Positions 1 through 64,000 of a stretch of DNA of 64,000 nt are shown in pieces (the first letter of the stretch is position 1; every line of letters begins with the position of its first letter). The translations under genes and the position numbers were made by a program. Location: positions 1,844,311 to 1,908,310 of the forward strand of contig CAMPDV010000007.1 in assembly GCA_946699065.1 (NCBI GenBank), read 5' to 3'. The notes under the pieces are model-generated. The model did no database searches and had not been told where the DNA came from. It saw only the letters and a program-made list of their open reading frames with translations. Source of the stretch: Loxodes magnus. Taxonomy: Eukaryota; Ciliophora; Karyorelictea; Loxodida; Loxodidae.

Positions 1-1245
1 ATGTTTATAACTTTCTTAAAGTTGAGGTTCAAGCATGGTAACTGCTTTAAAGCATTCGATTGATTGTTCAAGTTTGTTAGATTTTCGAAGACAAGTTCCT
101 TTCTAAAATTAAGCTTTATGATTTTGAGATTCAAGTTTAATAACTTAGTCGTAGTGCTAGACTGCTTCTTGGTATTTACCTAATTATTGATAAGATTCTC
201 CTATGTTAAAATAAGCGTTTATTTACTTAGAATCCTGCTAAAGTATCGCATTAAAGCTTCCTATTGATTCTTCATGCTTACATAACTACTAAAGACAAAA
301 ACCTTGCTTGTAATAAGCTTCTATATTTTTATGGTCAAGTTTAATTACCTAGTTGAAGCAGTTAAAAGCTTCCTCAAAATTATTTAATTAGCAAAAAGAA
401 TTTCCTTTATTAAGGAAAGCATCAATCTTATTAGGATCTTATTTTATCACTTCTTCAAAACAATCAATTGCTTCTTAGAATCTTTTTGAGTATAAAAGGC
501 AAACTCCTTTTTAAAAAAAGGCTTTAATTTTTTAAGGATCATTTTTGATGATAAAGTTAAAGTAATCAATTGCTTCTTATAGTTTATCCTAAATCTAGAG
601 TATAATTCCCTTTTAGAAATATGCTTTACAGTTCATGGGGTCAAGTTTAATAGCTTAACCGAAGTAACTAAATGCTTTACTATAATATCCTTACTATTTA
701 GTTAATTTTCCTTTTTAGTATCAAGCATCTACTGAATAAGGATCTATTTTTAAGATCTTATCATAGCAATTTATTGCCTCTTTATAATATCTTAGCACAC
801 GAAGAGATTTACCATAATTAAATCTTACTTCTACATTTTAAGGAGCAAATAAAATTGCTTTTTTAAACTATTTGATTGCTTCTTCATTTTTATCAAGAGC
901 ATGAAGAGCTTTTCCTTTATGATTATAGGCCTCAGCGTCATTAGAAGAAAATTTAATAGCCCAATCATAGCAAGCTATTGCTTCTTTATATTATTATAGC
1001 TCATAAAGAGTTTTTCCTTTATTTAAATAAAATTTAGCTTCTTTTGGAGCAAGCTAAATAGCTTAATCAAAAGATCCTATTGCTTCTTTGTACAATCCTA
1101 ATTAATCAAGTGTGATTCCTTTTTTGAAATAGCTATATGGCTGGTTAGGTTTAAGTGTAATATCTTGATTATAAAACTTTAATGCTTCTACGTATTTCTT
1201 TTAATCAAGTAATTTATCTCCCTCTTTCTCTTATTTATTTCCCAT
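1..1245 (-). CDS. TPR-repeat protein, 3' end outside window
   Basis: Reading TAA/TAG as Gln gives 415 uninterrupted codons from the ATG at 1245 to the window edge, so the C-terminus is missing. After a short charged N-terminus (MGNKQEKEGDKLL) the protein is a run of about twelve 34-residue tetratricopeptide repeats. Each carries the usual A-Y-x-x-K-G helix A and E-A-I-x-x-[FY] helix B pattern, with D-P-x or L-x-P turns. TPR arrays are protein-protein interaction scaffolds; no partner or enzymatic domain is visible. One in-frame TGA at 721-723 sits where this repeat very often has Trp (A-W-Y-x-K-G), and another Trp in the gene is TGG. No intron is needed. The ATG is the first Met of a coherent frame and is preceded by AT-rich sequence. 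The TPR assignment is secure; the specific function is unknown. Confidence 0.85.
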
Positions 1246-2952
1246 TTTGATAATATAAAAGTATTTATTTAATCATAGATACAATTACTACCCTTGCACC
1301 CTTTAGTTAGTATTTAATCTTCTATTCCTTATATCTTCTATTATTTTATCTATGCCTTCCGGTTATATTCTATTAATCATAGAGATTGTTAAGCACAAGT
1401 TTATACTTTATTTATATAAATTGAAATCATAATAAATAATAAGTGCTATGCTCTTAATATTAATACATGCTAGAAGTGCCAAAGCCAGTTAATTATACTC
1501 TTCTTATTTATTTCCTTCCTTCATTATCCTTAATCATTATTCCTCTATCTTCTATACAGATTTTATGGAACTTCATTCTGTATCTTGATTTTTGAATAAA
1601 GGGTGTTATTTATACAAGTAAGTAACTAATTATAAGCATTATAACTAGAGACTTGAAAAGTGTACTCTCTTTGTTTATTTAAATTTAGATAATAGAATAT
1701 AGCAGTTTAATTATCCCTAGCAGTATAGTAATTAAATATTTTAACTTACATATCACTTTCTTTTCTCCATTTAGCAGTCTTTATCATCAAATTTTAAATA
1801 GGAAAATTCCTTTAACTTTGGTTGCTCAGTTCCTTAAACTTTATCCTCACTAAATAAAATTAGCATTTCTATCTAAATTCTGTTTTAGTTAGAAAACTGT
1901 TTAGATAATGTTCTAATCTAAAATAACTTGATAACTAATTCTAAATAGATAGTCTACTATTAATATCCTAGTTAATAACTTAGCTAAATTAAAACCTGCT
2001 TATTTAAATATTCTATAATAGTTATATATTTAACTTAGAGATAGTATCAAGTCATTAGATCTAAGTTATTTTTATAAATCTAAGGAATCTAAATAAATTT
2101 ACGAACTTGGGGTATTTATTTACAATGTGTGATTTCTTCGCTTTATGTTCTAATTGAAATTTTTAGATTCTAAGGGAATGTTTAAGTCTTTAATTTAATT
2201 TTTACATATTAATGAAAATAATTTGTATTACAGAGTAAAAAGGTAAAGCAGTTTAATGTTTTTAATATATAATGATATTTCATAATTATAGGGAAGGCAA
2301 TAATAAAGATATATCTACCTTTGAATAAAGTATTACATTATGTAGCTAATTTAGAATATCAACAGGTAGTATCAAATCTAAATATAATGCTTAATTCTTT
2401 TGATACACTTAACTAACATCAAAGTAAAAAGAGTATTTGTACTTAGACCATTTAACTCATTTATACTAAGTTTAGCCTACATTTTTATTTTATTCTAGAT
2501 AAGCCAATTATTTGATTTTTCCAGCCTATAAATGAAACATCTTCAAACTTATTCTTTAAATTTCGTATCTTTATTTTCGCTTTTTAATACAAACTTATCT
2601 ATCCTCTGCATTTATTATCACTCTTTTTTTTCTTTATTTTAATACTATTTCATTTCAAATTCTATCATAAGTCCAATCTTACTCTAATAAAAATAAGGGA
2701 ATAAGCATTATCTACATTCCTAATTAGCTCTTATCTAATTAAAGATTAGCGTAGTAGTGAGTATTCATTCAATTTAGTAGGGCTAAACTATTAAATTCTA
2801 TTAAAAGACTATCAATCATATCCAGTTATAGCCCTTTTATTAATTGAACTTACAACTCTATTAGCTTTATAAGTAACTCTATATACTCTAACGCTAACGC
2901 CACTAACTATGCAAATATCATTTCATCAGTTCTAGAATCTATAGAAGTTGTA
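1246..2952. other. AT-rich stretch without a recognisable gene
   Basis: No domain or conserved motif was found on either strand. The plus frame that leads into the ORF starting at 2953 is open through most of this stretch. Because all three stop codons can be sense here, that openness is not evidence of coding. The last 300 bases of that frame read most like protein and may be the 5' part of the next gene. Confidence 0.5.
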
Positions 2953-5366: not shown

Positions 5367-8300
5367 TCACATTTCTTAATCTCTACTTCTTTCAACTTTC
5401 TCTTCTTCTTTCTAAAATAAAATAAAGCTCCTATCATTTTTTTCACTCAACTCATTATATATAAACTCTTCGTCGCTGATTTCAATGCTTGGGATAACTT
5501 AATGTTCTTCAAAAGGTTCAAATGTTATTTTTACTTTTAAAGGACAGGAAGTTTCAAATTTACATATATTTTAAATATTACTTTTAAGGTTAGCTCTATG
5601 AAATAGAAATTCTTGTTAACTGATAACTTTACACTACTCTTAAACATTTTATTAGAGTGTGTCTTATGTCTCTCTTATATTGCTTACTGTTAAATCTTAT
5701 TATTCTTCTCCTTAATTCTTCTACTCAAAGCTCACATTCCAACTTTCAAAACTCTCAACTTAATTTCTTATTTATTTGTCTTGAGCTGGTTTTCTTAAGA
5801 TATCTTAGTTTCTTAAGTTAAATTTATAGAAATTTCTGTACTCTCTATATCTATGGATAAATTATTTAATTCTTCGTTTCCAGTAATTTTACTATGTTAA
5901 AACTATGCTAAAACTAACCTAGTTGTAAAGATCTACCAAACTACTATCAAATAGAAGTAATCATTCCACTTGCTTTAAGCATCTAACGGTTTAATTTTCT
6001 TAGAAGGCTTAGAAATTTTTTCTGGTATGCTTGTTATATTATTCTAAATCATATTGATCATTTAAGTCTTTTGGACTAAGCTAATCATCATCAATCTGTT
6101 AATCAAGGTTAGCATTTTTCTTTTTAGCTTTCTTTCGCTCTTTCTATTCTTACTCTTATCAGTTGGTTACTATCTCTTGTAACTAAACTCTATTTTTAAG
6201 ACAAGTTAAGTAGAAAAATCATTTGAGAGATGTAATTTGAAGTCCTGATCCTAATTCTATTATCATTTATTGAAACCAAGCTAATATTAAAGGACCAGTT
6301 TAAGATAACTAGAAGCAAGAATATTATTAAGTCTATTATTGGGTATTTTTAGCCTGAGTCAAAATAAATCCCACAGTATAGAATGAAAATCGAAATAATC
6401 AGGTAATTAATCTCCAAATTATTTAGCCTGTTTTACATAAAAGGCCTAAACTTTAACTGAAGCAAAATACAAATTATTAAAACTAGAATTATGCACCAAA
6501 ACTAAAAAATGATTGTTGCATTTTATAAGAAAATGAATATCAAGGATATGGCGAACTTCTCATACATTTTGACAAATTCTCAGTAATATTACTTTTCGTT
6601 ATACCCAAGAGTCAGGAATCCAAACTAAGACTTAATCAAGATGGACTTTATTATGCGATTGTTTTTGTATAAATGCAAAATTACAATAAATGGAATTAGA
6701 ATTCCATACAGTATCAGTCCTGGTAGTGCAAAGCTTAGAATGAATTGAATATGTTTTCCCTTTCAGCATTCAATGTCTGTATAAGCATTCAAAACATAAA
6801 AATCTTTAGAAATCTGCTAGCAACTGAACGCACTAAAAATAGTTAGTATAAGATTTGTATTTATCTAAAAGAATGTAATGCTCATCACTGTGATGAATAT
6901 TGATTTATTGAATATTCTCCTATTAAATAATGAGTAGATCAATAGGATCAGAACACAAGCAGTTAAAATTACTAAAGGTAAAATCATGGTGTCAATTACT
7001 TTGTCGTAGAATCTTCTCTCACCTTCATAATAAATACAGTCAAACTTAAAGATAGTTGAAGTTATAGCTATATATTATTGGTTTATTTAAAACAACTCTT
7101 TAACTACCTCTGGCCAGTTAAATTTAAAGTTTTGAATCAGTAATGAGAATTACATATAGTTAGTAAGTATTTTAAAATAGACACTTAGATATGATTCTTG
7201 GTAATAAGCTGATTTCAATGTTTATCTAACAAGATAGATAATATATGCTATAAATATAGTAAATATGAATGAAGCTAGTACTATAGTTTAATTATTATCC
7301 ATACATTTTTAGCATTTATTAACTCCATCCTTTGTTCAGTTTTACTAACAAACATCGCATAAAATTCCTTTATACCCTTCTGCACATTTACCTGTTAAAT
7401 TATAATACTCATAAAAATGAGCTCTTTATGTTTAATTTGAAGACTAAATGTATTTCTTCGTTACACTATCACTCAAGTAAGCTCCTAAACAAGAAAACTT
7501 ATTAGGACATTTAAGAATAGCTTTTGTACTGTTATTTTATCTTCAATATCCTTTAATTGGAACTACTAGATCACTACCATAACATTTAGCTCCCTCCATA
7601 CAATCTGTGCATTATTTTTCGCCAGCATGTAAGGAGTATTATCCATAGAAGTAATTTTAACATCATCTTTCTTCAACCAATATTTAACCACGTAAGCATT
7701 CTTTGATTTAAAATTATATCTAAATTATATTTTATGAGCTCTAGTTAGAAAAAACACTTTTCTTATCAATAGCATCAGTTTCCAAACTTAAATACACTGA
7801 ATCTCCTGCCTTTGCTTTAACTATTATATCTTTAATATCAAAAACCCCAGATATAGCATATATTTTTGTTTTACCTTAGAGTTCTGCATTTTTATCAGTA
7901 TCAACAGTAACAATAGAGTAATTATCAGTTGTTACTATTTGTCCAAATGCATCTGTGATAAATAATTAATAATCAGGAATCTAAAATCCTGGTATTAAGT
8001 CATTTAATTGTCTTAAGTAATAATCTCCATCTCTACAATAAGATAGAATATCTGATTTGTTACTTTCTGAAAGTTTAAAAGCAAAAGAGGCTAAATTATT
8101 GCCATAGTAGGCAGAATTATTTTAGAATAGCACGCATGATTTATTATCTTCTAATTCAGGTACAAATTTTGGAATTGCCCCTTTTATAGAGATAGCTCCT
8201 CCTTCTCCAAATTTATTCCTTATTTTATTATCAATGAAGTGGTTGTTGGTAAATGAGTAATTACAGTTCTATTCCTTTTCACAAATAAGCCTTAAAGCTC

Positions 8301-11300
8301 CACCTTGTGAAATAGATTCGTTTCCTTTAATTTCATTATTCTAAAATTAATTGTTTAAGAAAGTTACGTTAGCATTCTATACAAACCCCACTCCTCCATG
8401 CTATTTAGCTCTACATTAGTAAAATTAGTTAATTTCAAATAAATAGTTTTATTGCATTTTATCATTTAAAATAGCAAAGCAAGAACCTATTTATGCTTGC
8501 TACATAGAGCAACTACATCTATACATATTCAAGTCCGAATTTAAAGAATAAATAGCACTTCCATAATTTAATTTGCTTTCACCATGAATGAATTCCGTGC
8601 TCTTCGAAATAAAGCTGCTGCTTTCGATGAAAATAGCAGTATTGATGTAATTACTAAGTATAGAGTCTTCTATGATCAATCTAGATTCCTTCGTATAAAT
8701 AATTGATCCATAATAAATAGACTCAACATGGTTAATCTTTACATCTCATAAGCTTAAGTTTGATTATAAAGCATAAATGAGTCCTTAATCTGCTTTCATT
8801 TTCTCAAAGATAGAATGAGCTAAGAAAAGATTTGATTTAGTTAAGTAAAAAGCACTTCCTAGAGTTCCATTCGCATTGTAAAAATAAGAATTTATTATGG
8901 ATATATTAGCTTAAAAATCACTCATTATAAATACTCCTGTATACGCTTTTTGGTTTTTAAATGTTGAGTTGTCGATTAGGACATATGAGTTCCATATCAT
9001 AAGACCTGAAGTTAATTCAGTAACTTAGTTTTAATCAAAGGATACGTTTTCAAGTTTCATTTAACGTTTGTAAATGAAGACTATCGAGTTCTATCCTTCA
9101 TTTCTATTTATCTTACTATTCTTTATCTCGTTTCATCTATCCTTTTATGAGCTCCATACAATTATAACGCCCATAGTGAGAGCTGTATTATTAATAACAA
9201 GCGAATTATTTATAAGAAAGGAAGAACTTTGCAAATACAAAAAAGCTCCTTCATTTGCAAAGTTATTCGTAAACTAAGAATTTTGTGCCTTGAAACTACT
9301 CCTTTACAAAAGATAACCTATTCCTCCACTTATAGACGCCATATTTTCCCTACAATTAACATAGTAGAAATTTAAATTAGTTGATTGGATATAGAAAACT
9401 GATCCATATTCTGCTTTATTATTATCAAACCTTGAGTAATAAATTGATATGTTTGAATCGAAAGCTTTTACTACACCTCCAACTTAAACTAAGTTTCCAT
9501 AGCTATGAATTTAAGAAACTTGAGCTTATACTTTCTAAAAAGAAAGCAAGGTTGCTTAAACGGCAGAATTATTGAATATTTCACATTTCTGTATAAAGAT
9601 AGAATCTTTAGTTGCCTCTATTAAACTGCCAGATACTTATATAGTATTTCTCGTGAAAACGCAATCAATTATTGAATAATTTGAAAATTCAGACTAGATA
9701 GCTACTCCTTTAAGCCCTCTATTTTCTTCAAATTTAATTTACTGAAATTAGGATTAAGAATTTCTCTAAGAAACAATGAATCCACTTAAGGCTTTATTTT
9801 ATATTAAGGTACTGTTTATCAGAAAAAAACTCTAGTTTAGTATTTCTATCAAGGCTCCTATCTAAATATCGTTAAGTTTAAAGACTGTTTCCTATATTAT
9901 ACTTTGAAAATTTCTAGCTTCTATAACTCCATAACTTGCTTTGTTTTCCAAGAATTAACTTCCTTTAATAAACAAATAGTTAGCTGATAGAGATTATAAA
10001 ACTGAGTAAACTTCATTGCTCTTAAATTTACAATCTTCCAAATGCAGCAGCTTTGATGCACTTAATTCTAAAATTTTCCCATTTTTAGAAGTATTATTTC
10101 AGAATTGAATTTGCTTTAGTGTTGCATCTGATTACGAAAGAAACATAATCGAACCTTAAGATGCTAAATTATTGGTTATTGTAGTTTGGGATATCTAGAG
10201 ATAGGATTAGGATAGATAAATAGCAGCAGAATCAGAAGCTTTATTATTGATTATTTAATTATTAGTTATTTAAATTTTGCTATTTTAGCCAAATATCACT
10301 CCTCCTTATATCTAACCCTTATTTTCAGTAAAATGACTGCTTTCAATTAATGCATAAGATTAATCTATAAATAAGCAAGCTCCATATTTAGCTCTATTTA
10401 GCTTAGCTGATATTTTTTGGATAATAAGTACACTTTGCTCAGAGTAAATAGATCCTCCTTTACTGGCAGCAGAGTTATTAAGAACACCAATATTAGATAT
10501 TTAGATAAAAGAATTAAAAATGTATAAGAAAGCTCCTTTAGAAGCGAAATTATTCGTAACTTATATACTATAGAGTGAACCATTTACTCTATTAAGGAAA
10601 ATTGCCCCTTCTTAAAATGCTTCATTTTCCTTAATTGTTATATTCTCCATTTTTAACTTAATTTATGAAAAGTAGGCTACGCTTCCTTAACATGCTCTAT
10701 TAAACATAAAATCACTACCAGATATAAAATAACTATAGGAGCCTTCGGCCTCAATAAAAAAGGCTCCTCTTTTCATAAAGCTATAATTATCAGTAAAGGT
10801 ACTATTTTCCATTCTATTAAAACTCGATTGCTATAAGCATGCAAAGCCTCCACTATCTTACTCTGCTCTATTACTTGAAGAGTTTAAGTTATTAACTTAA
10901 TCAATAAGAGTATTTTATAAAAAAACAGCTCCGACACATCAAAGATTCGCTTTATTTCCTAAGAACTAGCAATATTAAAAAATTTGAATTTTAGAAGAAG
11001 AAGCACTTAAAGATCCACCATATAATAGAGCTGAATTATTACTGAATTATGTGTTCTAAATTATAGCTATATTAGTGTTTTAAATATAAATGCTTCCTCC
11101 TTGTGCTTAAGCCATATTTTCTGCAAATAAATTAGAGTTTATTATGTTTTTTTATTATCATACATAGCAATAGCGCCTCCATTTTAGTTAGCTTCATTTT
11201 AAGTGATTTCATTATTACTTATCAAATCAACATAACCCTAATATAAATAAAAAAATCCCCCATTTTTAGAAGCTTTATTTCCAGCAGCTATTATATTAGC

Positions 11301-13741
11301 AATTTGTTAGATTCTACAATTAAACAAGTTTAATGCTCCTCCAGATTAATTTGTAGCTTGATTTTCAGTGAAATAGTTATTACTTAATGAATAAATATCT
11401 GATTTTAAAGCACAAATTGCCCCTCCGTCGATTCTCTTATTTCATTAAAAGTTGTTTTATTCAATGTAATTAACTTTTGTTTGATTGAAATAGAAACTCC
11501 CTCCTTACATAAAAGCTTCATTTTGCATTAAAGTATTATTGAAAATTCATTTAACGTCGCAATTTGAAAATATAGTGATACCTCCATAAAGAAAGGCTTC
11601 GTTTTTATAAAACTAACTATTAAGAATAAAAGTTAAATTAGCATTTTATAAATTCATAAAGCCTCCATTTTAATCTTTAGCTATATTTCCAATAGCATAT
11701 ACATCTTAAAAATATGCTATTTCAGATTCAACTATGTGCAAAGCTCCACCCTTTCATTAAGCTTAATTATTATAAAATTCGCTATTTAAGATATTTTCTA
11801 AACTGGAATTTTATAGAACCATAAAACCACCAAATTAAGCCTTATTGTAGAGTGCTGTGATATTTATAATATAACTTATGCTCGAATATTCAATTTATAG
11901 AGCTCCACCTCATATTGCTTCCGAATTTTATCTAAATAAGCTGTTACAGATATAATCTAATTTGGAGTTTTGGGATATCATAAAGCCACCTTTTAAATTT
12001 GCTCTATTGGTAACTGCAGTTACATATGATATTAATCTTATGTATGTTTTTTATATGCTAAAAGCTCCACCATCTTAATTCGCAAGATTATAATTAAATT
12101 AGCTATATTAAATATTATCTATTTTTGATAATAATGAATACAAAAACCCTCCAGTTTATCCAGCGAAACTTTAATTACTAGTGACATTTTAAATGGTTAC
12201 TATTGCTGCATCTATAAGAACCATCACTCCTCCATCTTTTCCTGCCTAGTTTTGAATAAATTAACTATTATATATTTAATATAAAGTGGATTATGAGGAG
12301 TACAAAAATCCTCCTCTATCAGAAGCATTATTACCACTGGCATATACATCTCAAATAATACTTATGGACGTATAAATTATGAACAAAACTCCACCATATT
12401 TTTTAGCTAAATTGCCATTAAATGTGCAATTATTGATATAGTCTAAAGTTGATATTTAGGAATACAAAAACCCTCCTTGATTCGAAGCCTAATTTTAATT
12501 TCCAAATACTTAAGAAATTCAGGTTATACTTGATTAGTCTATAAACAAAGCTCCACTTTTTAAATTAGCTTTATTACTTATAAAAGAGTTATTAAAAATT
12601 AGTCTTGCTTTACTTTGTATTAAGCAGATACTTCCACCGTCTTTTAATACTTTGTTTGACATAAAATTACATTATTCTATTTAAATAGCATAGCTCTATA
12701 TCAGATACAAAGCTCCTCCACTCAAAGCTTCGTTTGAAATGAATTAACTTTAAATAACATAAATTTGGGAGTAATAGGATGAAATAGTTCCATCATGTAC
12801 TTAATTTTATCTAAATGTGCTATTTATTATTTCTGAAAATGAACTAATTAAGGATATAACAGATCCTCCATTCAAAAAGTTTCACCCTAAAATAGAGTCT
12901 CGCAGATACAGATATGATTCTTTCAAATATATTAAGTCTTTTGCCTTATTAGATTATAAAATTGACTGATTTATAATTATATTACTTAATGAGCTGTAAA
13001 TAAGAATTCCATCATTTTAATCGAAATTACAGTTATTAAAATCTACATTTGATTAGTCTATCAAAAAGAAAGATCCTTATTGCTTAAGTTAGATAAGCAA
13101 TATCTCTACATTACTTAGAATGGCTACTGTATTCTATAATTTAATAAGGATAAAATAGTTTGAATAATAATCTTAATTTTAGAGTTCTTAATTTATAAAT
13201 TTGATTAGAATGCTTCAATTAATATATTATCAGCTTCTTAGCAAATATCAGTTCAGCATTTACCAAATTTGATTGTAATGGAAACATTAGAAAGAATGAG
13301 AGTATCGTAATAAAGTTCAATTATTAGCTATCTATTCAAAACTATTATTTCTCCATTCTGATTTTTATTCAAACACATTGCTTCTACCTGCTAGTTTAAA
13401 GAACAGTCATATGCTTCTATTTTTAAATATATGGAGCCACTTCAAGGATTATTTCTTCTTATTATTTCACATTATTTAAAATAAGTTTGGCTACAATTCA
13501 AATTATGAGCTTGAGGAGAAAGCAAAAATTTATAATTTCTAGAACCTTAAAGTGCATTAAAGGCGTCTAGTAAAGATGCTAAAGGGAATTCAGCTGAGCC
13601 ATATTCATATTAAAGATGCAATGCGCTTTTCACTTAAGGGGTTGTTATGTAAATTTCTATTTCAATTTCATGAGACTTAGAAAAGGGAAAAGTACATATA
13701 TAAATAGCTAGAAGGAGATATCTCGTTGTAGCTAGTCACAT
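5367..13741 (-). CDS. giant PMP-repeat (polymorphic outer membrane protein-like) multi-pass membrane protein
   Basis: The start MWLATTRYLLLAIYICTF looks like a signal peptide. Roughly 1,900 residues follow with many G-G-A/[FL]xN-type repeats, seen on the plus strand as recurrent CTCCACC/CTCCTCC about every 66-75 nt. This is the beta-helix repeat of chlamydial Pmp proteins and of large ciliate surface proteins. A Cys-rich EGF-like segment follows (EGYKGILCDVCQ, near 7350), then several hydrophobic helices with the motif YYWEFVKMYEKF near 6560. A charged cytoplasmic tail ends at TGA 5367-5369. Many Trp are TGA, including those in YYWEF and CQQNWTKDG. The frame changes once near 13,170 and once near 6,160; the second is explained by a 16-nt intron. 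The family architecture suggests a plasma-membrane or cortical protein facing outward; ligand unknown. Confidence 0.85.
6155..6170 (-). other. candidate 16-nt intron in the PMP-repeat gene
   Basis: GTAACCAACTGATAAG on the minus strand. Removing these 16 nt links the last membrane segments to a lysine-rich then acidic tail (KKNANLDQQIDDD). Without the removal the frame runs into three consecutive TGA codons. This is the simplest explanation of the phase change, but an assembly indel is possible. Confidence 0.45.
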
Positions 13742-33468: not shown

Positions 33469-33749
33469 CGGACAAAATAATTTCGGATTGAACCTTTAAA
33501 ATGTGTTTTTATAAGGCTGTTTTAGCTTAGAGATTTACAATGGATATCTGGGTTGGTTCGGACTAAATAATTTCGGATTGAACCTTAAAATGTGTTTTTA
33601 TAAGGCTGTTTTAGCTTAGAGATTTACAATGGATATCTGGGTTGGTTCGGACTAAATAATTTCGGATTGAACCTTAAAATGTGTTTTTATAAGGCTGTTT
33701 TTGCTCAGAGATTTACAATGGATATCTGGGTTGGTTCGGACTAAATAAT
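33469..33749. repeat. 89-bp tandem repeat, three copies plus a partial
   Basis: Copies at 33469-33558 (90 bp, one extra T), 33559-33647 and 33648-33736 are nearly identical, followed by 13 bp of a fourth. Each starts CGGAC(T/A)AAATAA, contains TTCGGATTGAACC, and ends in GGGTTGGTT. The copies differ at only a few positions, so the expansion is recent. The unit is GC-richer than its A-rich surroundings and carries no coherent ORF. Confidence 0.95.
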
Positions 33750-33765
33750 AAAGTTATTAAATCCT

Positions 33766-38366: not shown

Positions 38367-38602
38367 AGTATTGAGTTTAAATTAATCACGCACAGTAATG
38401 ATAAAAGCATTATAAATTTAACGTTTAAAAGTACTTGCATTGAAATAGTAAAGCAACTATTTGATAAAGAAAGTTAAATATTTTAGTATTGAGCTTAAAT
38501 TAATCACGCACAGCAATGATAAAAGCATTATAAATTTAACGTTTAGAAGTGCTTGCATTGAAATAGTAAAGCAACTATTTGATAAAGAAATTTAAATATT
38601 TT
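38367..38602. repeat. 118-bp tandem duplication upstream of the transporter gene
   Basis: Two copies, 38367-38484 and 38485-38602, differ at only about half a dozen positions. Each contains AATCACGCACAG(T/C)AATGAT and AACTATTTGATAAAGAAA. The second copy ends about 395 bp before the transporter start codon, so it may affect its promoter. No coding frame spans it. Confidence 0.9.
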
Positions 38603-44900: not shown

Positions 44901-45314
44901 AAAAGAGCATTGAAATCTCCCATTAGTATATGTGGATTATCATTATATAAGTTCAGCAATGTATTTAGTTGTTCATAAGCTAAATCTTTAACATCTTAAC
45001 TTTTTCCATTATCAGGCATGTAACAAGACGTGATTAAAATATTATCCAGTTTAATTGTTATGAATAGATTTATTTCTTTTTCAACTTATATATGTATTTC
45101 TGTACTATTAAATTCTTCTCCTACAATTAAGCATACACCTCCTCCTTTTCCTGAGTTCTTAAAATTATGTTTTAAATCCATTTATCAATATTGGAGGAAA
45201 GTCATCTTTTTATCAGGTTTCGTTTATTGATAAAATATCTATACTGTTATCTCTGATAAATTCTTCAATATTCAAGCACTTGCTCGCTATTCCATTAATA
45301 TTTATATGTCCCAT
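41930..45314 (-). pseudogene. LINE A ORF2: endonuclease-reverse transcriptase, decayed
   Basis: The ATG at 45314 opens MGHINING, then an AP-type endonuclease (ILSINETW, MGDFNA, SDHIP). A reverse transcriptase follows (NRKPAGPDGIKGELLKYG, DWKNWLPISLINTILKLYDK, VMQGSSHGPVLA, ADDLILLSKSA), with a C-terminal zinc-knuckle-like CMCGEYETFEHIFKC. The order is that of an APE-class non-LTR retrotransposon, which copies its RNA into nicked target DNA. NETW and NWLPISL are written with TGA. Several frameshifts (after the endonuclease start, between RT motifs, before ADD) and Arg in place of the aromatic residue of the [FY]ADD box show this copy is dead. It is clearly related to LINE C (56,400-60,335), which aligns through both ORFs. 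Confidence 0.88.
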
Positions 45315-45319
45315 CTTTA

Positions 45320-46060
45320 TTTTTTAAATTTATTAGTCCTTTCTAATTTTTTCCGAACCTGCAGGTAGACCACTTTCGTAAATGCAAATGCTTTTCTATC
45401 CTTATTGGTTAATCTAAATATGTACTAATCTTTTTCCATACTCAGGATGTTAATGAAAATATTGTATCAAAATATATATTACTTACGTCGTATATTTTTT
45501 AAGTAGCTTTCTATCTATATCAATTTTACTTTTCACACTATCACATGTTCCTTATTCTAAATCTTAAGTAACTGTGACATATCTACCTTATATACTTTAC
45601 ATTTCGTACTATGGACGTCTTCAAGTTTCTGATTTAATAAACTTTTAAAGTTATAGACTAGTCAGATTGAAATAACATATTATTTAATCGCATTCTTTTT
45701 TATTATTATGTTTACTCATACGTTTTGCTGGCGGAATTGTTTTATCTTCTTCTTCATGTTTCCTTTTAAGAATATTAAGATTAATATTGGAAGATAAGGT
45801 TTAATTCTGATAAATAGTATCGATCGAATCTGTTTAGTTTTATTAATCTTTTTTTCAACTTTTAGTAGAATAATTAAATATATCTGTCTTCAAATTTTAA
45901 TTAAGTTTCTAAAACTCTTCTATTTTTATCTCAAGTTTCTACATATTTTGGGTACTTTAAATGAATTTTAAGTTGAGTTAGTGATATTAATGCTATAGTA
46001 AAACAAAATCTTCATCTGGCAATTTTATTTGACAGTATTAGTTATTATGTTATGTTATAA
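45320..46060 (-). pseudogene. LINE A ORF1 remnant
   Basis: Coherent minus-strand segments upstream of ORF2 include NLNILKRKHEEEDKTIPPAK, CKVYKVDMSQLLKIQNKEHV and NKDRKAFAFTKVVYLQVRKK. The last resembles the C-terminus of LINE C ORF1 (NNQKYFAFMTQDLKEELK). The segments lie in different frames, so ORF1 is broken. By analogy with other LINEs it would be an RNA-binding chaperone. The 5' end of the element is near 46,060-46,180, next to the start of LINE B on the other strand. Confidence 0.5.
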
Positions 46061-46200
46061 TAGTATTAGTTTATGCTTCCTATTAATTATTTTAAGTTTA
46101 CATTAACTTGTCTTGCTTGATTATATTTGTTTGAGTAAATTTTTGACACAAAAAAGCTGTTTATTATTTATTTATATTATAATGATCAATACGGAACAAA

Positions 46201-48094
46201 AAAGATGTTTTCGTAATATTTGTTGATATTAAGAAAGCGTACGACTCGGTGCAAAGAAAAGATATATGATAAATCCTAAACTATCTAAAAGTACCGGAAT
46301 AGATAATTAAACTCCTAGCAAACTTCTACTGTGAAGAAGAAATTAAACTTAAAATCAATGAATAAATAGCAAAATCATTCGCGACAAATAAAAGACTAAA
46401 ACAGGGGAGCATAACGTCGCCAAGACTATTTAACTTAATAATAGCAAGACTTCTCCATAGCTTGGAAGATTAAAAGCTAGGAATTACGATAGACTTTAAA
46501 AACTAAGAGGGATGAACACAAGAAATATATGCAGGATGTTTTGCATATGCAGATGACCTAGCCTTAATAAGTGAATGAGAATAATTAGAGGAAGTAATCA
46601 AAAATTTAACCTCATGGGCAGAAAAATACAAACTGGAAATTGCAGATAAAGCAAAATGAATGATATGAATAGCAGCAGAAAATAGAAACTGAGAAAATAT
46701 AGGCAATACTATTGAGGTGGGAAACTTAAGAATCGAAAGAGTAACGTACTTTTAGTACTTAGGGCATATAATAGAAGAAACCATCAGCTTTGAAAAACAC
46801 ATGGAGAACAGACTAGAAGCAGCATAAAAGATGTAAACATGAATACTGGGTAAAATAACAATGAATAAGGGATTAACACCATATAACGCAGGTATAATGA
46901 TAAAAACGTTCGTAAGCTCAGTATTCAGCTATGGGACAGAAGTTATCCCATATTGTGAATAATTTGTAGGAAAATAAGTGATGGAACAATTAGAAATAAT
47001 ATAGAGAAGATCTTTACGAGCAATCATAGATGCCCCTTTCTAAGTGTAAAATGAGATGCTAGAATACGAGTTACAGTTTATGAAATTTAAACATTACCTA
47101 TGGTAGAAAACACTGAGATTAAGAGGCAGATTAATAGGTAACTAAGGAAAAACAGTAGATGGATTAATGTTCGACCTAAGTAAAGAAGAGAACTTTATTT
47201 TTGAACAATACTGCACGACAATAAAATTAGAATTAAAAATTGAAGACAAAAATATATTTATAGATGATGGTAATAATAATCAAAAAGGGAAGAAAAGCAT
47301 TAATCGTGTAATTTGAGAACATAGAGTATACGTAGAAGATAGAGAAAGAATGGAGTAAATGATAACAACTCTACAGTATAGAAAAACATGATTTGATGAA
47401 TATGTAGTAGGACCACCCAACTACCTGAGATACACTAAAAATAGAAAAGAAGAAATATGCTACATATTTAGAATAAGAACGAGATGTAATGGGAGCCAGG
47501 ATTGTTTAAAAGAAAGACACCTAGTTGCGACAAGCAATTGCCCTTTCTGTAATGATGCAAGAGAAAACGAAAGGCATATCATAGAAAAATGCTCAGAATA
47601 CAAAGAAAGTAGATAAATATGTATTAGAAAGTTAAGAAAAATAGGAGTAGAAAGACAAGGAATGGAACTATTTGATATAATATGAGGTACGGCAAAATTC
47701 GAAAAATTCATTAGAACCTAAGAAGAGTAAAAAAGAGCTAAAACTGACTTGATAATAAAAGATTATACCAAAAACATATTAGAAAAAAGAAAAAAGGATA
47801 CTTAGAAAAGAAAATTGAATGAAAAAAAGAAATAGGAAAATATTATAGAGCAGGAAAAGGATAGTTTTTATGAGTTTATAAAAGCTTGATTAAGAAGAAA
47901 AGAATTAGAAACAAAAATTAGCAAAGTATGTAAAAAAAATAATGGACGCTTGTAACAAAGAATCAATAAAACGTAGATAGATAGAAGACAGAAGAACAAG
48001 AGATATTGAAGAAGAAAATGATGAAGATATGGAACTAATAAGAGAAGAATTTTTATTACCTGAAGGCTTACTTGAAGAAATAGACATGTATTGA
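46201..48094 (+). pseudogene. LINE B: 5'-truncated reverse transcriptase, distinct family
   Basis: Starts abruptly inside RT motif A (VFVIFVDIKKAYDSVQRKDI), so endonuclease and ORF1 are missing, the usual 5' truncation of target-primed copying. It continues through KQGSITSPRLFNLI, CFAYADDLALISEW, YLGHIIEE and the C-terminal CPFCNDARENERHIIEKC. The catalytic YADD box is intact. In one continuous frame of about 580 codons it has 11 TGA and 2 TGG, all at positions where Trp fits (for example DIWQIL, SEWEQL). One frameshift lies in an A8 run at 47932-47939; after it the acidic C-terminus ends at TGA 48092-48094. It differs from LINEs A and C throughout and is GC-richer. It is followed directly by a hairpin and a TTTA tail. 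Confidence 0.9.
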
Positions 48095-48106
48095 AACATT
48101 TATTAA

Positions 48107-48139
48107 AGAGCTGCGCACCAACGAGGTGCTACGCGCTCT
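48107..48139 (+). ncRNA. 3'-terminal stem-loop of LINE B RNA
   Basis: AGAGC-GCG-CACC pairs with GGTG-CGC-GCTCT with small bulges and a short loop, giving a GC-rich hairpin in a very AT-rich setting, 12 nt after the ORF stop. Other stem-loop LINEs use such a structure for recognition by their reverse transcriptase. Confidence 0.75.
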
Positions 48140-48144
48140 ATAAT

Positions 48145-48165
48145 CAAATTTATTTATTTATTTAT
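48145..48165 (+). repeat. (TTTA)n tail of LINE B
   Basis: About four to five TTTA units directly after the hairpin. Short tandem repeats at the 3' end are typical of LINEs primed on short complementary target sequence. The opposite-strand coiled-coil gene begins immediately beyond. Confidence 0.75.
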
Positions 48166-48168
48166 CTG

Positions 48169-49548
48169 TTTAGATAATACTATCCTTTGTTTAAATATTT
48201 CCATATAATGTCTAAGTTTATGCCTCTACAAATTACTTCTTCTAAAATTACTATTAATTACTAAATTCTTTTGTATGTTAGATTAATTCTAAAATAATTC
48301 TTTATACATTTGAATTTCCTTATTTTTTAATAGAATTTAATTTTGAAAAGCTATATTTATTTCATAGTTTTATTATCTTTACTTATCTAATTCGACTTTA
48401 AAAATTAAAATTTCCATTTAAGCTTTCTATTCTTAATCTATAAATTACTTATTTTAGTTTTATAATTTTTAATATTAAGAATATAACTCTTGGAATTAAA
48501 TTTCGTTTATTATTTGTTATTAGGTAATTTGTTGAAGTAAATATTAGTTCTATTCTAATATAGTCTATTGATATCCTTACTAAGTTTTATTTAGAAAGTT
48601 ATCTATTTCAATCTAAGTAAAATTTCTAATTTTATTAAAGTTTTGGCATAGTGAATTATTTGCTCCTATCATTTAAGCTTAAGTAAAGCTTTAATTAGCA
48701 TTGACTTCAATTTGAATCTCTTAATTAGATTATATTTCATCTTTTGAATTAACTTAATTCTCATAGTTTTTCTATTATATCTAAATTTCTTGAACTATAC
48801 TAATTATTTCATCTGTTTAAACTATTTAGTTACTGTAATAAGTGGAGAAGTTTGTATAAGTAATTTTATGAACTAGTTATTTTGATAGCATTTTTTTGTG
48901 ATATTGCTATATATCAGATTTGATTGACTAAAAATAGTTCTATAATAGTTTATATTTCTAATAAATTTTATTTATATAAGTTTTATAATATATTTTGGAT
49001 ATTTCTTAGTTACTTATCAATGTTTCAATATCTCGTTCATATTTTGCTTTTATATTAATTAACATTTCATTTAATTATTGGTTCTTATCTATAAGTCTTT
49101 ATATATTATGTTTAAGTTCTTTTATTTCTAAGGTAAATAAGTTCTCATTAGACTAATTAATTATTTGATTTTATATTACATTTCTTAAATCAGCAGTTTA
49201 ATTTTAAGGTTGTTTGCTCTGAAGATCAGGTAAATAATGATTATTTGAATTATCAGGATTAGTAATATTATTTTATTTCTGACTAATTTCGTTATTTGAA
49301 ATTTAATAGAATTGTTAATTAGTATTATTCAAAAATTAATCTTAAGTTTATGTTATTTTTGACTACCATAAAAAGATATCTTTATTTGAATTTTAATTAG
49401 GATTTGAAGGTATATCTTTTGAATTCTAACTATCTAAGATAATATCTTATTTTTGGAAAGATTTCTTAGGTAATCGTTTCGTATCTTTCGCGATATTATT
49501 TTAGGCGGTTAATCTGTTCATCTATTTATAGGTTGATTTCACTTTCAT
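48169..49548 (-). CDS. Gln-rich coiled-coil protein, 3' end abutting LINE B
   Basis: About 460 codons in one frame from the ATG at 49548 (MKVKSTYKQMNRL), with no TGA at all and a single TGG Trp. The N-terminal 150 residues are Asn/Gln/Ser-rich and look unstructured. The rest is heptad-like and rich in Ile, Leu, Gln, Lys and Glu, for example LEIKELKHNIQRLIDKNQQL, characteristic of long coiled coils in ciliate basal-body or cytoskeletal proteins. No enzymatic domain is seen. The frame runs straight into the antisense tail of LINE B without reaching a TGA, so the retrotransposon has probably inserted into the 3' part and removed the native C-terminus. A shorter natural end is possible if TAA can also stop. 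The upstream 350 bases hold no clear exon. Confidence 0.65.
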
Positions 49549-49909: not shown

Positions 49910-50203
49910 GAAGATATAATTAAAAGATGGCGCTGAGATTGGTCTTCTTGACTAAACTTTCTGGTTTATGGCTAGGAACAAGTTCCTTTCCTGTCGCTAA
50001 GAAAGTCCCTGATCAGAATCATTTTCTGAAGGGAACGGTGTCTTTGAGATTATCCGCTCTTGGTAGGGCTTGAAGCCTGATTGCTCATAGCGATGGAGCT
50101 CACTAGCAGCTTTTTCTAGAACACAACAGGATACCCCTGATATTCCTTAAAAAAAGAGTGTCAAATCGTCTAATTGGAAAGGAATTTTCGGTCCCAAAAA
50201 CTC
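49910..50203 (-). pseudogene. FLGP/QLDD protein family, copy 2, longer
   Basis: Minus frame: EFLGPKIPFQLDDLTLFF, CCVLEKAASELHRYEQ, SKTPFPSENDSDQGLS, then LFLAINQKVQSRRPISAPSF. The first 44 residues match copy 1 at 30709-30850, with GP-[KE]-IP, QLDD, CCV and A-x-ELH-x-Y conserved. Similarity continues a little upstream at the nucleotide level. Composition is GC-rich against the flanks, with a sharp change on both sides. No ATG is visible in the frame and no TGA lies near the coherent end, so it is probably a fragment or an exon. Family unknown; a mobile-element origin is a guess based on location among LINEs. Confidence 0.6.
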
Positions 50204-50769
50204 TTTTAGTTAAAATTAATGAATTAATTCATTCGAAAATTATTTATTTAGTAATAACTTACATTTAAACTAAAAAATTCACATCCAATCAGCTTTTAAA
50301 TCTAAATTATATGCATTAATTTTAGGTTAAATTATTAAATTTTTCTTAAACCAAAAAAAAAGCAAAAATGACAGACTCATTATAAATCTTAATATTTAGA
50401 GTTCTTATAATTAAAATAGCTACTTTTATCTTGCAAATCTTAGTGATTTATATTAAGATAGTAAATTTTTTATGATGTTCATTTCCCATAAATATATCAA
50501 GTTATTTCTATGTTTTAATTTTCTTTTCAAACATCATTCTTAAAAATAAATAAATTCTTTCATTAAAAAATAAATAACTCTTATAAAATTTATTTAATAG
50601 TCAATTTAAATAGCATTTACTATCTGCTTAAATAAAGTAATCCGCTTTTTGTTTTCTCTTAGGATGTAAACACTTAGATAGCGCTTTAATAACTAGAAAG
50701 TAAATTAAGTAATATTGTTAATATGCTACATAGTTTTTTTAATTTATTATATATATTTTAATTTAAATA
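50204..50769. other. AT-rich spacer
   Basis: No coding or repeat signal beyond the short region matching the upstream side of copy 1. Confidence 0.45.
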
Positions 50770-56399: not shown

Positions 56400-59300
56400 T
56401 CAACTTTTCTACTCTTGTATTAAATTTTATTCTAACTCTTCTTTTTACAGTTAATGTGTTGATTTAATTTCACTTTTTTAAAATAGAAGCTCTTTTTCAA
56501 ACATATCTTTTTACTCAATGATTTCTATTCTTCTTCTGAGCAGTTTTTTATGAAAAATCTTGATTCTAAGGTCAATTTTCTTGAGCTACTAAATACTTGT
56601 AAAGTTCTCATTTAAATATTTTTGGTTATAGGTTAAGAGCTTTAGTAAATCATAATTTTTTAAGTCTTTAAATTCTTCAATTAACTCTTTCAAGACCTCA
56701 CATGTTGGAATATGTTTAAAAGTATCAAGGTCTCCACAAGAACATGTTTCAGATCTTTAAATGTTATAATGCCTTTACAGCAAATCATATTATAAGGTAT
56801 AGGAAAATGTTCTAAGCTTATAAATCGATACAATTTTTCTTACCATGTGTTTGTTAAGATTAGAGTAAGTGTAAATTTGGAATTATGAGGTTTTATTGTC
56901 AATTTCATCTATATAAACATGCTGTAGGTATTAAGTTCATTCTTCTTATTGAATCTTAATAAATTTTTTGTCTTTTTTTATTTTAAGCTAACCGTAGGAA
57001 TTATTTGCTTGCTTTAAAATCCAAATAATCAATTTAAAAATGCTAGGATAGTTTCTATAGTTTCTTAAAATAATTAAGATTACTGTTTTTTGTTTTATTA
57101 ATGAGGAAAGCTATATCAGAATTAGGATTTGTTTCACTTTCTTATAGTAATTTGAGATAAAATTTAAAGTATCTCATAGATATTCAATTTTAAAATGGAA
57201 GACAATTCAAATCTATGAAGCAAGATTCGTTAAAAGAAGAATTAGGACTCTAAAGTGCATATCTTGGTACTTTTCTCGGACTAGTATTTATATCTTTTTT
57301 GACTTTTTGATAATGTTATTATTCAAAGTAATATTAGAATCTTAATTATTCTATTTCTAATTCTTCTTAAGAAAACATATATATTCACATTTTTCTGTAT
57401 TAATTGATAGTTTTACTCAACTAAATACTTTGCAAACAGCTTTTATTAAATAATTCATATTATCTTCATTTTAAATCAATAAAAAATCGTCAACCCATGC
57501 TTTAGTTACAAAATAAAGGTTCAAAATTTTAAATCCAAGTTATTTCTGATTAGTTTCCAGGTATCTAATAATAATATCATAGAAAATTATAGCAAGTACT
57601 GGTCCATGTGAACTTCCTTATAATACACCATTGTTATATTATAGCATTCTTGATAATTTTTCATCTAATAGAAATCTAACATCTAGCCCTTTATAAAATG
57701 ATTTAATACTATTTATTAGTGCTAAAGGTATTTTAATTCTTCTTAAATGATCAAACAATAGAGTCTATCAATACTATCAAACATCTTTTCAAATTCAATA
57801 AGAGTAGAGAGCAAATGTTTCTTCTTTCCTCATCTTCTTTACAAATCAATAATTGATTATAAGGTTCATACTTAGTGCATAGTTTATCTTTTCTTTAGAA
57901 ATCCCTATTGTGAAGGATGTATAATCTTTCATTAATCAATATATTCATATAACCTTTAAGTAAGCATTTTATCATATATTTTAAGGATGACATTTATAAG
58001 TGCAATAGGTCTCCAATCTCTTCAATCACTTTTTGATCCTTTTTTGTAAATAGGAAGGATTCTTATTTTCTTAAGTTAATTTGGAATAGTTTGATTTCTT
58101 AGCCTGTTATTTATAAATTTTAAAAGCACAATATGAAACTCTTTATTAGCATATTTTACGAGTTCTACTTTAATGTCATCAGCTCCATCCGATTTATTAT
58201 TTCCTTATTTCTTTATAATTACTTAAATTTCATTTAAATTAAATAGATCGAATTCTTGTCTATATATAGTTACCTGTTCTTATACGAAATCACAATTTCT
58301 ATAAATATTATCAATTTTTTAATTACACTTTCTTATTTATTCCTCATCAATGTTTTTGTGCTTAATAAAAGCATTATTTTCCCAATTTTTTATGAAACTT
58401 GAAAACCCTTCAGAATTCAAATACATATATTTCTCTTCCTTGGATTTAAAAGTTTTTTTACTTACTTAAACATTTTAGGAGGAGATTCATTCATTTATTC
58501 TCTATTTTTTTGGCTTATTTTTACTTGTATTTCCAGTAATTACTTTTATATCTAACAATTTTTATCTTTTATTAAGACAACTTCAAAACTATCTAGTTTA
58601 CCCTTCCTTATTATTCTAAAGCTTGCTGGTAAGCTATTTGTGCTTATTTTGCAGAATTAAAATTCTTAATAATATTTATTGGAAGTCAATTAAAGTTTTT
58701 ATTCTATGGAACTTATCCTAAGATTTAATCAGCATTATTAATGAGTAAATGTCTTATCTAGATTATTTTAATCAATTGTATCAAAATCAATCAAGCACTC
58801 TTCAAATAATGCCTTATATTCAGATCTAATTTCTAAATTTTAAAGTTTACTAACCTTAAAATTTATTCTAGGAGTAAGAATTGGTATGCTTTAATATTTT
58901 AGATAAGCAAGTTAAACAGTATATGAAAGGGATCTGTATCAAGTCAAGTGTTATTTAAAAATTAAAATAGTGTAAACTAATTAATGTTGATATGATAATT
59001 GACTATAACATAATCGTTGCAATAAGTTTTAAAGCTCACTACTTCTAAAAGTATAAAATTATGTATCATTAACTGTTTATAAATCATATTCTTCAATAAA
59101 ATTTTTTAATCTTTAAGCGTTTTTTTATTAATTATTACTCCCATACTCATGCAAAAGAACATTAAAGTCTCCCAATAGCATAAGGGCTTAATCTCCTACT
59201 TCAGTAAGGATAAATTCTAAGTTTTAATATGATTAGTCTTTGACAGATAAAGGTTTTTCCTCTGTTGGCATATAACATGTTGCAAAATAAATGTTGTTAA

Positions 59301-59559
59301 CTTTAATTACTAAGAAACTATTGTTTTAATATCAAAAGTCAATTTCAATTTGTCTCGAATCAAGTTCTTCTTTGACAATAAAGCAAACACCACTTGCTCT
59401 TTAGGATTATTCCCAATTTTTTAAATATGTTCTATATCCTTAAATTTATATTGGAATGAAGTCTTAATGTTATCAAGTTTCATTAATTGTAAAAATATCT
59501 ATTCCTTATTATCGAGTAAATTATTGAATACTTAATTATTTTGTTTAGATTTAATTCAT
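56400..59559 (-). CDS. LINE C ORF2: endonuclease-reverse transcriptase
   Basis: The ATG at 59559 overlaps the ORF1 stop. Endonuclease motifs: DIFTINETWQHQD, SGVCFIVKEEL, YFATCYMP, LLGDFNVLLHEYG. RT motifs: SDWRDWRPIALINVILKIYD, STLIEFEKMFDSIDRL, YNNGVLQGSSHGPVLAIIFY and AWVDDFLL (the two catalytic Asp intact, with Val in place of the Ala of [FY]ADD). The C-terminus CSCGDLDTFKHIPTC is zinc-knuckle-like, followed by KIDLRIKIFHKKL, and it ends at TGA 56400-56402. At the site where LINE A has D-W(TGG)-K-N-W(TGA), this copy has D-W(TGA)-R-D-W(TGG). Start and stop are in different phases, so at least one indel interrupts it, probably near 57,850 between RT motifs. It is better preserved than LINE A and belongs to the same family. 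Confidence 0.9.
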
Positions 59560-60335
59560 ATTTTAATTAGCTATTTTTAATTAATTTACTTCAGCTCCTC
59601 CTTTAAGTCCTGGGTCATAAAGGCAAAGTATTTTTAATTATTGTGAATTAAATGTGGAGTAATTTAGAGCTTAGATTATTAAAGTTAATTTATCATATTA
59701 CTATGTTAGTTTTTAATCTATTTTAATTGTTACTTAGTTACAGTCAATTGTGGCATAATCCAATTTACTAGATAATGTAATAAATCTATTTTTAATTTAA
59801 ACAAAGAGATATGAATTTTATCATTTTTTCGCTCTTTTAAATTAAATAAATTTTTCACTTCTGAAGTTATTTCTTCAATATCAAATTCAAATAATTGGTT
59901 ATGTTACATAAATTTCAATTTACTTTGGCTTAATTATGCATCTCATTAACTTCTCTTACCAATTTATATTAATTCTACTGAATTTTAATCCATATAAGAG
60001 ATTTAATTATTTGTTGCTACGAAATTTGAAATGTCTACACTTTAGCTTTGTTTTTGTTCATTAAGTTCACTAAATTGAACCGTCTGAGTAGCTGTGTCTT
60101 ATTTTAAAGATTTTTAAATTTATTAAATCTTTGATTTTGTTTTATCCTTCTAGAGCTAAGATACATCTGCATAAGCATCTAGTTTTAGTTCGCATTAATG
60201 TTTATTATCTTTTACTAATTAATATGTTAAGAATTAAAAATATTATAAACTTCATATAATTCCTGATTATTCTGCTTCGCTTATTGAAAATCCTTGTAAA
60301 AAAGCATTCAGATGATAATCAGTAATTTCTGTCAT
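59556..60335 (-). CDS. LINE C ORF1, intact
   Basis: 259 residues in one frame, ATG 60335 to TGA 59556-59558. Starts MTEITDYHLNAFLQGFSISE. The middle is Gln/Lys-rich and heptad-like (coiled coil), and the end is amphipathic and basic (FAFMTQDLKEELKQINQKQL). Two internal TGA and one TGG encode Trp (GIIWSLQ, RSQWDAQ, LVNWIMP). In two-ORF LINEs, ORF1 is an RNA-binding protein that coats the element RNA. No zinc knuckle or RRM is obvious. Its stop codon overlaps the ORF2 start as ATGA, with ORF2 in the -1 frame. Start chosen as the first in-frame ATG of the coherent segment. The C-terminal part resembles the LINE A ORF1 remnant. Confidence 0.75.
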
Positions 60336-62257: not shown

Positions 62258-62971
62258 ACAAATCCACTCCAAAACAAACAGGGGAACGCTGATAACTCCA
62301 CAAATCAAACTTAACTATTTTCGGAAAAAGGGATCAATGCAAGAAGATTCCCAACAGATGACATTTTAAGCGAATTTACTAATAAACAAGACCTTGAAAT
62401 GGACTAGAAGCAAACTCTTTTAACTATCATAAATTGTCATAGAACTGGAAAAGGAGTTGGAATAACTCCAAACATAATATCGATTTTTGTACTAATAACT
62501 TAAATTCTTAAATGGACAAATTAAATATTTCCAAGGAGTAATGCTAAGATGGAAGAACTAGACGATATCTATGAGTATGCAACAATAAAGCGAAAGCTAC
62601 TTTATGAAGCATGAAAAATAAACAGAGGAAAAGAAACAAGAGTTAAGAAAATAGAACGGTCCTACATGTAATAATAGCAATCCTAAATGATAAACTAACC
62701 AATCTAATGGAAATAGATAGAGTATAGTAAAAAAAACTCTCGAAAGAAAGGCTACATAAATATGATACTGGAGAAGCTGCAAATATATTAAGATGATCCT
62801 CAAGAAGATTTGGAAAAATCTTACTACTTTTTACTTAACGAGCGATGGTAAATATGGAAGAAGATATTTAATAAATAGACGTATAATAAGCAAAGAAGTA
62901 AACTGATTTCGGGGACCTGATTGTACTCAGATAGAAAAGAACTTTTTAAAGAAGAATTTTCAATTCCATAA
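62258..62971 (+). CDS. hypothetical protein, ends uncertain
   Basis: One plus frame reads coherently for about 238 codons: TNPLQNKQGNADNSTNQTQL, INARRFPTDDILSEF, NCHRTGKGVGITPN, MEELDDIYEYATIKRKLLYE, SYYFLLNERWQIWKKIF and TWLYSDRKELFKEEFSIP. TGA appears as Trp in EAWKINRG and GTWLYSD. In-frame ATGs are at 62399 and 62549, but good protein begins before both, so the start may lie behind an intron. Protein character stops at TAA 62969-62971; the next in-frame TGA is at 63155. If only TGA can stop, the last 60 residues would be hydrophobic AT-rich sequence. If TAA can stop, the gene ends neatly here. No family recognised. Confidence 0.45.
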
Positions 62972-64000
62972 ACTTTAATTATATTTTATTTAAAATTATT
63001 TTCTCAACATTTTATATTTATTATTACTATTTCTCATTCATAAATTAATATAATCTTTCAACATATTATTTATAGTCTAAGCTATATTTATTGCAACTAT
63101 GTCTCAATATTCTTAAATATTGAAACTATTATATTTTAATTAAATTACTATAATTGAAAGAATACTAAATTTCACTTTTATCATTTTCCTTCCTTTTACA
63201 ATAACTTTTTTTGCTCTTTCACTTTTTATTAAATTAATTTCGTTCAAAACTAAATTAATTTATATTCACTTAAAAATATAAATTTCATAAATAATTTATA
63301 TATGTTTCTTGTATCATTTTTATTAAAATTCATATTGATTTTAACTCTTGTTATCATCTTTCACTTTTCATTTTTATAATTTTTATAATCAATACTTTCT
63401 CTATATTTAAATGAACCAGTTTTTAAAATTATCGATATTTATACGCTTTTCTTAATACTAAGTTTTATTTGTAAAATTTAACTCTTTCAATTAATTATCT
63501 ATTTTTTATTTCTTGCTTTATTCCACTTTTTTAAATTTTGACTATAATGTTTCTTACTGCAAAGATGCCTTTAGTACTCTTTTAATAATAAGAAATATAA
63601 ATAAGATATACTATCACCTTTAACTTTCTATTTAAACTTTATCTTAGCTAACTTTTTTCATTTTTTTAACAATATTATTTAGGCTTATTTATTTAATCTA
63701 TTTTTTGGAATTATTTCTTTTATATCCTGTAAAATTTATTTTATTTCCTGGATTACTCTTTTAATAATTCGTCTTTTTTATCCACACTCTTTATAATCTG
63801 TATTAAACATTTTTTTAAAAACTTATCTTAATTTATTAGCAAATTGGTAATCACTTACTGCTTCTGAAAATTATATTTACCAAATTTAATTTTATGGAAT
63901 TAAAATTAGATATTTTTAACTTTTAGTTTTTTATAAAATTCTTAAATCAATTACTAAAATTAATTTTAATCATCATTTTAAAGAAATGTAGTTGTCTTTC
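62972..64000. other. AT-rich spacer to window end
   Basis: Very T-rich on the plus strand. No coherent protein, repeat or RNA structure seen. Confidence 0.45.

Follow-up and report, generated by a model that had tools for sequence, protein, structure and literature searches.

The question raised by this locus is whether a single codon, TGA, can specify tryptophan within genes and also end them. The stretch analysed here, referred to as the window, comprises 64,000 nucleotides of Loxodes magnus DNA (contig CAMPDV010000007.1 of assembly GCA_946699065.1, positions 1,844,311 to 1,908,310 of the forward strand), and an earlier note made from its letters had proposed that it uses a karyorelict-type code. 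Our results support that proposal. NCBI genetic code table 27 gives the best fit to the data, and the window is very probably ciliate nuclear DNA written in the karyorelict code, with TAA and TAG read as glutamine and TGA read as tryptophan inside genes and as stop at their ends. The phenomenon itself is already described, the karyorelict code having been published with a Loxodes genome included. As a whole, the earlier observation is confirmed in part: all the codons that it pointed to are present, but not all of the tryptophan sites that it listed hold up.

The window is AT-rich, with a GC content of 22–28% in 4-kb steps, and the standard code yields just two open reading frames of at least 120 amino acids across its whole length. 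Six gene or element families become recognizable once TAA and TAG are taken as glutamine and TGA is left open. The Pfam scan covered 43 translated frames from chosen regions rather than the full window, with the PMP-type gene left out. The codon model was seeded by training on recognized genes, in place of an unsupervised coding hidden Markov model that slid to antisense codon usage. The recognized features, including long interspersed nuclear elements (LINEs) with a reverse transcriptase (RT), are as follows.

16–1245, minus strand: TPR-repeat protein (Pfam TPR_1, E 9e-69; 410 codons read, continuing beyond the window).
5367–13094, minus strand: gene for a PMP-type repeat membrane protein (three or more frame blocks; Blepharisma match and codon model).
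26503–27447, minus strand: homocysteine S-methyltransferase (PF02574, E 2e-54; stop TGA 26503–26505).
34080–35312, minus strand: CDPK-like kinase with EF-hand-like repeats (Pkinase and EF-hand Pfam matches in different frames; PDB CDPK matches).
38998–40420, plus strand: MFS transporter (MFS_1, E 9e-18; two exons separated by a putative 19-nt intron, 40237–40255).
41900–46100, minus strand: frame-broken LINE copy, "43k" (RT by RVT_1, E 6e-11; endonuclease from its alignment with the 58k copy).
46150–48094, plus strand: LINE fragment with RT, "46k" (RVT_1, E 1e-20; 583 codons in one frame).
56400–59900, minus strand: frame-broken LINE copy, "58k" (Exo_endo_phos_2, E 5e-8; RT from its alignment with the 43k copy).

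The comparison of the PMP-type gene with Blepharisma is the best single test of TGA as tryptophan. The gene lies in frame blocks 12719–11148, 11106–6283 and 6281–5367, the first of which the codon model pushes out to 13094, and the 2437 codons counted include 18 sense TGA and 8 TGG. The sole match to its C-terminal part among 3168 candidates was Blepharisma stoltei P0121 (E 2e-35), and no relatives were found among prokaryote contigs; a sole relative from Blepharisma would fit a link between heterotrichs and karyorelicts. BLAST with the Blepharisma protein missed the C-terminus of the PMP protein, and the match was recovered by direct alignment with a shuffle control, in which 7392–6289 scored 534 and the best of the shuffled sequences 74. 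The five aligned TGAs face tryptophan three times, tyrosine once and serine once (P 1.5e-5), and the seven tryptophan columns of the alignment hold TGA in three cases, TGG in one and other codons in three. The three TGAs that face a Blepharisma tryptophan are these.

7543–7545, minus strand: TGA in GYwR.
6763–6765, minus strand: TGA in IECw.
6580–6582, minus strand: TGA in YYwEF (HYWEF in Blepharisma).

The last is the YYWEF site to which the earlier note had assigned a tryptophan, and the relative bears that assignment out.

Tryptophan is also the residue singled out when alignments are pooled. In a set of 1758 aligned codons, in which every stop was masked and one direct Blepharisma alignment replaced the BLAST pieces, TGA occupies 4 of 25 tryptophan columns (P 3.3e-4, or about 0.007 after allowing for the twenty residues tested), as does TGG, and no other residue is enriched (phenylalanine comes next, P 0.14). 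Among columns with a clear commonest residue the figure is 4 of 20 (P 4.7e-5). Random placement of in-frame TGA, which the earlier note had named as one outcome that would undo its reading, is disfavoured by these pooled columns, the enrichment falling on tryptophan alone. Two individual sites add to this picture. In the TPR-repeat gene, the single sense TGA (721–723, minus strand) falls at the consensus tryptophan in an alignment of TPR structures, for which the query had been pre-read with tryptophan, in agreement with the A-W-Y assignment proposed earlier; in the RT of the 46k LINE, TGA 46267–46269 stands opposite tryptophan in 10 of 16 homologues. In-frame TGA occurs at 8.5 per 1000 codons, compared with 18.2 predicted by base composition and with 13.3 and 33.8 in the other frames, and a rate halved in this way is as expected of a sense codon in rare use. 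TGA is also carried by long single-frame blocks, with 9 in 1608 codons of the PMP gene and 12, next to 2 TGG, in the 583 codons of the 46k LINE. The same columns speak to a reading of TGA as cysteine, as in a Euplotes-type code, or as selenocysteine. TGA does stand in one of 34 cysteine columns, and one LINE pair sets TGA against TGT within a conserved stretch, but one in 34 is the chance level (P 0.39), TGT or TGC occupy 22 of the 34, and TGA falls on tryptophan in the PMP gene, the RT and the TPR protein. We give the cysteine or selenocysteine reading next to no probability.

Nonetheless, several results weigh against tryptophan as the meaning of TGA, or against the double role proposed for it. 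Methyltransferase columns were read from 120 listed homologues of 459 aligned. TGA 27214–27216 stands in a column that is phenylalanine in 94 of the 120 listed homologues, and TGA 27100–27102 in a variable one (threonine in 38, leucine in 30 and arginine in 21 of 120); the latter is the VWLAGSIPP site of the earlier note, where TGA is present, yet the column is not a tryptophan column and the claim fails. In the 46k LINE, the majority of TGAs are at variable columns. A blind summed substitution score for TGA puts tryptophan (2.6) narrowly over tyrosine (2.3; 403 of 1000 bootstraps). Lysine comes out on top when the PMP alignment is removed (20 columns), and serine does so on a set with three alignments fewer (17 columns), where TGA stands at 1 of 15 tryptophan columns (P 0.22). 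Several genes contain frame changes, and decay or assembly error therefore adds spurious TGAs. Finally, homology fixes just one of the four gene ends read, the methyltransferase end; the kinase and MFS transporter ends were placed by reading frame, and the PMP end by frame and codon model.

The LINE copies contribute to both sides of this balance. The earlier note had treated as decisive an exchange of tryptophan codons between two of them, D-W(TGG)-K-N-W(TGA) at 43725–43754 and D-W(TGA)-R-D-W(TGG) at 58001–58030, both on the minus strand. The swap is real and supports tryptophan, but it does not settle the matter, because both copies are frame-broken and a change from TGG to TGA comes easily in a dead copy. 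Within the RT block that holds the swap, three of the five TGA-bearing pairs between the 43k and 58k copies fit tryptophan, the misfits being TGA/AGA and TGA/TGT; over all six matching stretches, which partly overlap and are poorly aligned, only 4 of 22 TGA pairs do so, and in homologues the first swap site is cysteine in 6 of 13 and the second tyrosine in 13 of 14. In the 43k copy TGA stands at 45213–45215 (NETw), 43737–43739 and 43149–43151, and in the 58k copy at 59473–59475 (NETw) and 58022–58024, with a possible stop TGA at 56400–56402. TGA is thus present at the NETW motif that the earlier note had reported in both LINE endonucleases, but its tryptophan position is unconfirmed: a 5-kb query returned no endonuclease relatives in PDB, a shorter endonuclease query gave one weak PDB match (an exonuclease, E 0.0012) with lysine at the NETw position, and none of 16 RT homologues, of which 7 have an endonuclease domain, carries the motif [QN]ET[WFYHKRA]. 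The elements called LINE B and LINE C in that note seem to correspond to the 46k (plus strand) and 58k (minus strand) elements, and a LINE search of viral contigs gave no relatives. Passages of PMC11441545 report RT- and endonuclease-bearing LINEs for L. magnus, and the elements of this window fit that description.

Under the Tetrahymena-type code (table 6), TGA would be stop alone, and the internal TGAs would be nonsense codons in pseudogenes and dead LINEs or products of frameshifts. A G-to-A change of TGG offers an easy path to TGA, the swap-bearing LINE copies are frame-broken, and frame changes also occur in the kinase and the PMP gene. The kinase has an inferred 22-nt GT..AG intron (35249–35228) plus further frame changes; two of its TGAs lie inside a short block of disturbed frame, and in its last block TGA stands 45 and 50 codons ahead of the stop, where the reading frame is disturbed. 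It also carries DFA in place of DFG, HRDVSPEN, and a cysteine (TGT) where the DxWSxG motif usually has tryptophan; it may be a pseudokinase or a decaying gene. What table 6 does not account for is that TGA enrichment is restricted to tryptophan columns, that long TGA-bearing blocks stay in a single frame in the PMP gene and the 46k LINE, and that in-frame TGA is about half as frequent as expected, like a rare sense codon. We consider it very unlikely that table 6 applies here. Programmed frameshifts at stop codons, of a Euplotes-like kind, were also considered in a by-eye check of the kinase and PMP frame changes, one of which adjoins a TGA, and this candidate was dropped.

TGA also stands at all four gene ends read: methyltransferase 26503–26505, kinase 34080–34082 and PMP gene 5367–5369 on the minus strand, and transporter 40418–40420 on the plus strand. 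The earlier note had TGA ending these genes and a LINE, and TGA is indeed found at each of them, including 48092–48094 in the LINE, but homology fixes the methyltransferase end alone, where PDB matches extend to residue 307 of 312. Since clear homology is lost about 307 codons short of the PMP end, that end was placed by codon model and frame; an extra match at 6272–6101 has E 5. The putative stop of the 46k LINE (plus strand) lies in another frame, past a frame change, and from it to a (TTTA)n tail that starts at about 48149 is some 54 nt. Between stop and tail is a hairpin (fold z -2.0; 9 of 200 shuffles equally good), and this 3' hairpin, within 46150–48175, is possibly an RT recognition end. 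The last sense TGA before the stop lies 199 codons upstream in the methyltransferase and 198 in the PMP gene, gaps with a joint P of about 0.05 (computed with 199 codons per gene), and the MFS gene has none.

The gene ends and the introns also bear on the choice between table 27 and the Condylostoma-type code (table 28), in which each of the three codons serves as sense and as stop. The sense readings of the two tables are identical, and few ends were read, four in all with one fixed by homology. Yet TAA or TAG stops were seen at 0 of these 4 ends, three of them placed without homology, and TAA and TAG occur as sense within the final 20 codons of two of the four genes, so that the condition raised in the earlier note, that TAA and TAG also sometimes stop, is unsupported. 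Intron length would point the same way, the two candidates being 19 and 22 nt rather than 15–16 nt. Each is the shortest GT..AG stretch at its site that restores the frame, longer candidates being present at both sites, and on these lengths they would fit Loxodes and not heterotrichs: Loxodes introns are mostly 17–25 nt, and passages of PMC11441545 give a mean of 19.3 nt and a mode of 17 nt for L. magnus and 15–16 nt for heterotrichs. Judged by its sequence features, the window most likely comes from a Loxodes-like karyorelict. We therefore regard table 28 as unlikely for this window.

In-frame TAA and TAG together number 246 among 4213 codons counted without the kinase, compared with 73 CAA or CAG. 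Their assignment to glutamine in the earlier note is supported by enrichment at glutamine columns (10 of 50, P 5e-4). Glutamate columns are raised too, in second place (15 of 116, P 0.0028), and two TAA columns of the methyltransferase are glutamine in 69 and 97 of the 120 listed homologues. The summed score is weak for glutamine, at 1.1 for TAA, where glutamate scores 2.0, and at 1.6 for TAG. A Blepharisma-type code, with TGA as tryptophan and TAA and TAG as stops, might be suggested by the Blepharisma origin of the sole protein relative of the PMP gene, but the abundance of in-frame TAA and TAG and their enrichment at glutamine columns make it extremely improbable.

Several known systems resemble the one described here. 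As far as passages of PMC11441545 and PMC4967479 describe it, the karyorelict code of Loxodes and Parduczia is alike in its glutamine TAA and TAG, in TGA as tryptophan inside genes and as stop at the ends read, and, for Loxodes, in short introns that the two candidates here would match. Condylostoma magnum (table 28; passages of PMC4967479) shares UAA and UAG as glutamine, UGA as tryptophan and context-dependent ends; it differs in also using UAA and UAG as stops, and in having heterotrich introns. The Blastocrithidia nuclear code, in the parts of PMC12153298 that concern it, likewise reads UGA as tryptophan and gives one codon both a sense and a stop meaning, but there UAR is glutamate and the stop is UAA, whereas here TAR tracks glutamine (with glutamate second) and TGA stands at the ends. 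The Tetrahymena-type code is alike in TAA and TAG as glutamine and TGA as stop but never reads TGA as sense, and the Blepharisma code is alike in TGA as tryptophan but stops at TAA and TAG. For Condylostoma and Parduczia, passages of PMC4967479 propose that UGA is translated by default and that proximity to the mRNA end forces termination. In the mechanism that the literature as a whole suggests, reading of UGA would by default fall to a near-cognate tRNA-Trp(CCA) whose anticodon stem is shortened, and near the mRNA 3' end the release factor eRF1, aided by poly(A)-bound protein, would outcompete this reading; short 3' untranslated regions and a lack of in-frame TGA just upstream of the stop would then make the same codon unambiguous. 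ARAGORN found no tRNA genes in the window, and no Rfam match in the window reached the gathering score.

Some further features of the window may be recorded here. The MFS gene uses TAR and CAR equally (6/6), unlike the other four genes counted, and its GC content of 0.352 is the highest of the five. A repeat pair of 143 bp with no family assigned (30695–30837 and 50087–50229) is in inverse orientation with 79% identity, and tandem arrays lie at 33469–33749 (89-bp unit, 3.1 copies, 97% matches) and 38367–38602 (118-bp unit, 2.0 copies, 95% matches).

Finally, the use of sense TGA differs between genes. Across five genes, sense TGA accounts for 32 of 52 tryptophan codons and 0.76% of 4209 codons, compared with UGA usage of 0.120% in Parduczia and 0.042% in Condylostoma in passages of PMC4967479; the passages searched gave no Loxodes figure. 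The tryptophan codons of the MFS gene are 8 TGG and no sense TGA, versus 32 TGA among 44 in the other four genes (P 1.7e-4, for a gene picked after viewing the data), and the share of sense TGA is uneven across all five (chi-square, P 0.0024). In the retroelement, TGA makes up 11 of 13 tryptophan codons. Highly expressed genes in Blastocrithidia avoid reassigned codons, as reported in part of PMC12153298. One tentative interpretation, which we hold to be possible but doubtful, is that UGA is the majority tryptophan codon with a use split by gene, that its double meaning carries a cost shunned by well-expressed genes and not by retroelements, and that LINE mRNAs, too, stop at a TGA near their 3' end. 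A translation cost of the ambiguous codon is offered as a hypothesis drawn from this uneven use.

A codon with both a sense and a stop meaning ranks with the most marked exceptions known to the fixed genetic code, and a clean independent case is valuable. Annotation of such DNA requires table 27 together with very short introns, and gene calling with the standard code would miss nearly all of the genes described here. That genes differ in their use of sense TGA is the one lead here that could probe the cost of the double meaning.

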